A DNA stretch of 64,000 bases from positions 44,879,049-44,943,048 of the forward strand of contig CM046856.1 in assembly GCA_025617745.1 (NCBI GenBank), given 5' to 3'. The first letter of the stretch is position 1, and each line of letters begins with the position of its first letter. A program made the translations under genes and the position numbers. Of this stretch, positions 42,127 through 42,837 are shown piece by piece. The notes beneath the pieces were generated by a model. The model made no database searches and was not told the origin of the DNA. It was given only the letters and a program-made list of their open reading frames with translations. This DNA is from Heliocidaris erythrogramma (taxonomy: Eukaryota > Echinodermata > Echinoidea > Camarodonta > Echinometridae).

Positions 42127-42837
42127 TTAACGACAAGGGTAGCACCCGCAAATATACCGATACTTACAACAAAATAATCTTATTCTCTGACGAAAGTAAT
42201 TATGCCCTGGTGTAAAACAAAACAATGATTCTGGGCAAGTCACAGGGGGGAAGAGGTGGGAGGTAGGATGTGTGGGATAATGCTCCTGAAAACTGGCCAA
42301 AATACATTTTACAACGCATTTATGGTAGTGCGGAGTCGAGTGGGGAGTCAGGAGAAGCATGCATATGGGGATACCTAACAAGGTTGTATAAGATGCTATC
42401 AAATCAAGGTACGAAATTTGGACACAATAATCCAATGCTTCAACAAAATTGTCTACATCCGAACTCGGTAAAATGTAGTACTGGGATATAATTGCTCTAC
42501 AAGTTCTTTGGGGGACTAGTAGGAATCCACACAGATAAATAATGTCTTCGAAAGGGACGTGCGTTTGAGACCGCCCGACAGGAAGGCCTAGAACATGTCT
42601 GTAAAAGAGTCTAAATGCTTTCTTGGGTTTTCTTATATTCTCTGGAAGGAGAACAATGCACTCTTCGTTTGAATTATGCGTATCTATTCCCTGCCTAAAA
42701 TCCCTAACTGAATTAAAATATTCTGAATGTCTAGCCAATTGATTTACTTCTGTTGCAGTGACAGAAATATGCAAATCTCCTCTATAGGGAGTCGTATCAC
42801 CCATTGGAACATAACTAACAAAAAAAAATATTAACAA
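42127..42837 (-). CDS. ORF0: leader ORF with BTB/POZ-like domain
   Basis: 236 codons between the 5' LTR and gag, ending 70 bp before the gag Met and in a different frame. A more natural start may be Met12 (42,804). Residues about 20-118 look like a BTB/POZ fold: GDLHISVTATEV, LARHSEYFNSVRDF, IVLLPENIRKPKKAFRLFYR, FEDIIYLCGFLLVPQRTCRA. These align with the BTB pattern DVxLxV...HSxYF...F, I.LPE....AF..fy, then a helix with LCxFL.V. Residues 125-155 (VDNFVEALDYCVQISYLDLI) resemble the helix pair after many BTB domains. The tail is His/Pro/Cys-rich. BTB domains dimerise or recruit Cullin-3; any role here is inference. I know of no standard Gypsy gene at this place. Confidence 0.6.
   Translation of the reverse strand: MLIFFFVSYVPMGDTTPYRGDLHISVTATEVNQLARHSEYFNSVRDFRQGIDTHNSNEECIVLLPENIRKPKKAFRLFYRHVLGLPVGRSQTHVPFEDIIYLCGFLLVPQRTCRAIISQYYILPSSDVDNFVEALDYCVQISYLDLIASYTTLLGIPICMLLLTPHSTPHYHKCVVKCILASFQEHYPTHPTSHLFPPVTCPESLFCFTPGHNYFRQRIRLFCCKYRYICGCYPCR

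Follow-up and report, generated by a model that had tools for sequence, protein, structure and literature searches.

The window analysed here, a 64,000-nucleotide stretch of the genome of the sea urchin Heliocidaris erythrogramma (contig CM046856.1), carries on its minus strand a long terminal repeat (LTR) retrotransposon of the Ty3/Gypsy type, which runs from 44323 to 33569 and encodes, between its LTRs, the open reading frame (ORF) ORF0, followed by gag, pol and a small third frame (Table 1). ORF0, the subject of this report, lies between the 5′ LTR and gag as an uninterrupted minus-strand frame of 236 codons (42127–42837), exactly as a preliminary description of this DNA had stated. A long frame begins for the first time with the ATG at 42804, which also gives the longest ATG product (225 residues); residue numbers used below refer to positions in the 236-codon frame. 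The rest of the element proved to be as intact as described, with its LTR pair present (99.1% identity in one 1385-column alignment) and gag, pol and the third frame all open.

Open copies, an excess of synonymous changes and relatives outside the genome confirm that ORF0 is more than a chance frame. A search of the 1.06-Gb genome with the ORF0 protein gave 12 matching stretches at seven or more places (25 candidates scored), and a query with P0002, one of the outside relatives described below, returned 9 stretches at the same seven places (12 candidates scored), these counts being lower bounds. Since the two queries find just these seven ORF0 places, the earlier suggestion of a capture from a host gene found no support. 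The frame is open throughout at three of the seven, namely in the window and in the copies C14 and C6, while stops, shifts or deletions break it in the other four (C8, C5, C9 and, at 38.33 Mb of C4, the copy termed C4b). C14 and C6 each possess a target duplication of their own (TACA and TATC, respectively) and near-identical LTR pairs (99.8 and 99.2%), and consequently go back to insertion events of their own, fairly recent ones, within a single family that kept the frame.

Selection was judged by aligning each copy pairwise to the window. The ratio of non-synonymous to synonymous changes (dN/dS) of ORF0 in the three open copies was 0.16–0.21 against C8, 0.31–0.34 against C5, 0.23–0.35 against C9 and 0.36–0.39 against C4b, and it ranged from 0.24 to 0.81 in the six pairs among the decayed copies; as the counting ignores transition bias, such ratios are somewhat too low. 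For gag, the corresponding values were 0.28–0.33 (C8), 0.48–0.51 (C4b), 0.67–0.69 (C5) and 0.80–2.41 (C9), the last resting on just 1–3 synonymous changes. The preliminary description had proposed copies and dN/dS as a check, and a synonymous excess was indeed found in all five pairs tested out of the 12 open–decayed pairs, some of which have branches in common (one-sided P: window–C8 9e-5, window–C5 0.0016, window–C9 0.035, window–C4b 0.018, C6–C8 8e-6). The open copies differ from each other by 0–4 non-synonymous changes, too few to judge selection.

Moreover, a search of 5.8 billion proteins returned three relatives, P0001, P0002 and P0003, with 73, 47 and 43% identity, respectively, which cover 89–95% of the ORF0 query with few and short gaps. 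Two profile rounds added six further partial relatives, and all nine (P0001–P0009) are known as protein sequences. Among viral contigs, 42 stretches fit a pattern, none of which (0/42) encodes a relative.

BTB domains are protein-assembly modules in wide cellular use, and the preliminary description had read ORF0 as BTB-like. A real, selected and family-specific gene with a predicted BTB-like fold stands from this reading, and the peptide blocks quoted there are present and in BTB order in our profile alignments; a match to BTB by sequence profile does not. The AlphaFold2 model reaches pLDDT values (predicted local distance difference test, in blocks of ten) of 82–93 over residues 21–50 and 61–120, and its best structural matches include KEAP1, KBTBD2, SPOP, KLHL11 and the vaccinia A55 BTB-BACK structure (PDB 6i2m). 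Two models built from different alignments both put BTB entries on top, and the structure search points, if weakly, to BTB. The ORF0 profile is collinear with BTBs, at a score reached by 0/200 and 0/300 column shuffles; HHalign gave these alignments probabilities of just 4 and 11%. ORF0 has collinear conserved blocks in common with the BTB/POZ exons of the same genome but is not closely related to them in sequence: its score against them is 22.6, whereas single host BTBs score 103–215 against the rest.

Several searches weigh against the assignment. Pfam returned no family for the ORF0 protein at E up to 10 and no BTB for the 11 members of the ORF0 alignment, and a sequence search of the PDB with the ORF0 protein, its profile and P0001–P0003 likewise gave no BTB. 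Lacking a match to PF00651, ORF0 is therefore not classed as a member of that family. When a single BTB consensus was compared with the ORF0 profile, the LA-S-YF block alone aligned (P 0.035), and at the place of the [AC]H[KR] motif, which precedes the LAA-S-YF helix, both ORF0–BTB profile alignments have a gap. The BTB-like domain of ORF0 is predicted to be shortened and highly divergent.

Behind it, helices are predicted at residues 128–140, 144–154 and 169–186, in agreement with the helix pair reported before. A feature missed by that report is a conserved C-terminal module (residues 180–227), which shares 75, 77 and 73% identity with P0001, P0002 and P0003, respectively, compared with 70, 38 and 36% over residues 12–122. 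In the distant relatives P0002 and P0003, conservation is thus highest in this module rather than in the BTB-like part, whereas both regions are nearly equal in the nearer P0001 (75 vs. 70%). Within the module, the alignment of the relatives displays invariant Cys and His residues plus an RQR-RL-CC stretch, through which it could bind zinc, RNA or membranes; from residue 205 onward the AlphaFold2 model is not confident.

Table 1. Features of the ORF0-bearing element in the window (positions of the forward strand; target-site duplications in element sense).
Feature	Position	Strand	Remarks
Target-site duplication, 5′ side	44324..44327		TGTA, read in the flank
5′ LTR	42940..44323	-	1384 bp; TG...CA ends read directly
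Splice-donor-like site	43085..43093	-	GAT/GTAAGT, at 43090; top donor upstream of ORF0
Candidate unusual primer-binding region	42894..42936		Just inside the 5′ LTR
Splice-acceptor-like site	42815..42833	-	Polypyrimidine tract followed by TAG; 11 nt ahead of the ORF0 start codon
ORF0	42127..42804	-	ATG product of 225 aa; stop-to-stop frame of 236 codons, open from 42837
BTB-like part, residues 20-122	42472..42780	-	Predicted from model, structural matches and profile alignment
Helices after BTB-like part, residues 123-186	42280..42471	-	Predicted; at the place of the 3-box/BACK start
C-terminal module, residues 180-227	42157..42300	-	Rich in Cys, His and Arg
gag	40809..42056	-	415 aa; RRM, PNMA-type region, CCHC zinc knuckle, all over Pfam cut-offs
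pol	36964..40824	-	Reverse transcriptase, RNase H, integrase, over Pfam cut-offs
Third frame	36327..36836	-	169 aa; acidic, then basic patch and hydrophobic segment
3′ LTR	33569..34951	-	1383 bp
Target-site duplication, 3′ side	33565..33568		TGTA, read in the flank

The element is assigned to Ty3/Gypsy because reverse transcriptase, RNase H and integrase follow each other in pol in the order established for this group, and it displays the TG...CA LTR pair, the short target duplication and the gag zinc knuckle as well; duplications of 4 bp flank all three copies with an open ORF0. A protease match in pol is weak (E 0.03, under the Pfam cut-off). The gag frame shares 196 nt (40809–41004) with the pol frame, which stands at a –1 offset, as for a frameshift. 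The third frame behind pol, for which no Pfam family reached its cut-off, is open in the window, C14 and C6 copies. An identity with Troyka elements was rejected, since CG...CG ends and 3-bp duplications are described for these (PMC12440569), as opposed to TG...CA and 4 bp here.

With gag as query, at least 101 genome matches were obtained (101 of 660 candidates scored). The gag of the ORF0 family occurs at the same seven places as ORF0, and 13 other loci with an unbroken, near-full-length gag match at 45–46% identity fall into three sister families (A, B and C). Within 1.5 kb before gag, these 13 loci contain no sense frame longer than 104 aa, and among five more partial gag loci that were scanned the sole longer frame (159 aa) is a gag start by its sequence. 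A tblastn search of the 13 leaders with P0001–P0009 and the ORF0 protein gave nothing below E 2. In 4.1–4.5 kb of upstream DNA from one member per family, the longest sense frames measure 98 aa in A and 107 aa in B, those of family C (143–246 aa) read like pol pieces from another element, and a profile search for ORF0 in the upstream DNA of all three came back empty; the best upstream tblastn match is antisense (family B, P0006 at E 0.013; 0.22 for the ORF0 protein there). Weak matches of P0002 to family A leaders (E 2.2–8.1 at five loci; also 1.7) were dropped on account of internal stops and the empty profile search. As no ORF0 was found in the sister families, elements of this lineage can apparently do without the gene, and the gag tree is compatible both with a gain here and with a loss in the sisters. 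The sister families (L032–L037, L039–L045) likewise have an RRM/PNMA-like gag, and their near-identical open copies perhaps reflect recent activity.

The leader is identical in the window, C14 and C6 copies. From its stretch next to the 5′ LTR, the sequence GGTCGTGAGTTC has a single occurrence in the window and none in 100 shuffles. Seen by eye, this stretch looks more like the interior of a tRNA than like a tRNA 3′ end, the plus strand presumably comprising a D arm, an anticodon region with GAT and a T stem, and an internal tRNA piece instead of the 3′ end may be what pairs with the primer-binding region. In a simple splice-site scan, the acceptor-like site before ORF0 ranks top upstream of ORF0 and second overall in 43850–41990; another donor-like site is located at 43232, and the donor that ranks top over everything scanned (41998) is inside gag. 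Twelve ATGs occur between 43850 and 42804, which makes a spliced ORF0 RNA plausible, the splice probably leading into the acceptor-like site directly before the ORF0 ATG.

Elsewhere in the window, a 244-codon frame (18320–19054) has a GIY-YIG domain over the cut-off and may be what is left of a different mobile element. Two minisatellite arrays (29466–29868 and 48691–49149) have related units that are in part palindromic and are based on ACGAAATNNATTTCGT, and about four (3.9) tandem copies of a 349-bp unit containing CCCCCAGGGGGG are found at 46546–47842.

In our view, a single Ty3/Gypsy family probably (at roughly 0.75) carries in ORF0 a genuine accessory gene whose product adopts a BTB-like fold. 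A slight balance of judgement favours the explanation as a whole; its scaffold part, in which a BTB-like multimerizer and the conserved C-terminal module would act together, is by itself rather less likely than not. The BTB-like part would multimerize the ORF0 protein, and the multimer would present several basic C-terminal modules to a ligand changing little between species, most likely RNA or Gag of the element itself, or else a host factor that is conserved. ORF0 could then serve as a scaffold for the handling or assembly of element RNA, like multimerizing RNA regulators, a mechanism that we put forward tentatively. Somewhat more doubtful is a BTB-type adaptor kept by selection across species, whose oligomeric platform and C-terminal module would hijack a conserved host machine (a ubiquitin ligase, a silencing complex or RNA export). 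An ORF0 without protein function, left open by chance in a long leader, would fit its being known here from DNA and its not being found in three sister families, but the synonymous excess and relatives at 43–73% protein identity with few, short gaps make this highly improbable.

A selected accessory protein with its own small alpha/beta fold, whose resemblance to BTB comes from convergence or from a bias of the predictor, appears unlikely, as BTB entries lead for two models built on different alignments and the collinear profile alignment scores above 200/200 and 300/300 shuffles. Recruitment of Cullin-3, already envisaged in the preliminary description, deserves still less credit. The BTB-like part and the helices that are predicted to come after it would bind Cullin-3, the C-terminal module would bind a host restriction factor for degradation, and the best-matching folds (KEAP1, KBTBD2, SPOP, KLHL11 and A55) are, by entry titles, Cullin-3 partners. 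However, phi-x-E after the -S-YF- helix, the motif of Cullin-3 binders, is by eye missing at the matching place in ORF0 and P0001–P0003, while of 20 host BTB exons inspected in the same way 14 or more show it, and a Cullin-3 adaptor is therefore not favoured. Pfam moreover found no kelch, MATH or other substrate domain in ORF0, and the strongly conserved tail would be unlike what is expected of an arms race with a host factor.

If the adaptor interpretation is true, ORF0 would be the first accessory gene of the BTB-adaptor kind in a Ty3/Gypsy element. A selected pre-gag gene with a BTB-like fold would widen the known coding repertoire of retroelements. In this context, the sister families provide a natural comparison within the same genome, and the conserved C-terminal module is a testable handle on the binding partner of ORF0. 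To our knowledge, few accessory genes of animal Gypsy elements have been described, mostly after pol, and among the open-licence papers listed by our searches (Repbase not included) none reports, in its title or the opening of its abstract, a BTB ORF in an LTR element. ORF0 would furthermore parallel viral BTB proteins such as vaccinia A55, which reportedly binds Cullin-3; A55 matches BTB by sequence, whereas ORF0 shows no BTB sequence hit, kelch match or phi-x-E.

Among retrotransposons, Retrosat2, RIRE3 and RIRE8 of grasses contain an ORF0 upstream of the gag-pol frame, and its function is described as unclear (PMC3485330). The likeness, compared by position alone, is an extra sense ORF between the 5′ LTR and gag; by its description, the gene studied here is set apart through the PNMA-type gag, its relatives at 43–73% identity and the predicted BTB-like fold. 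Bdelloid rotifer elements carry varied extra ORFs, designated ORF3 (PMC5408684). The nearest functional parallel known to us, by analogy, would be CERV of the Caenorhabditis elegans LTR retrotransposon Cer1, which is needed for the export of genomic RNA and is described as a protein of 517 aa with exons 1–3 in the gag frame and without obvious homology beyond nematodes (PMC10309623). Like ORF0, CERV is an accessory protein specific to its element that contains a Cys-rich region, and it is made from spliced RNA, as may perhaps also apply to ORF0.
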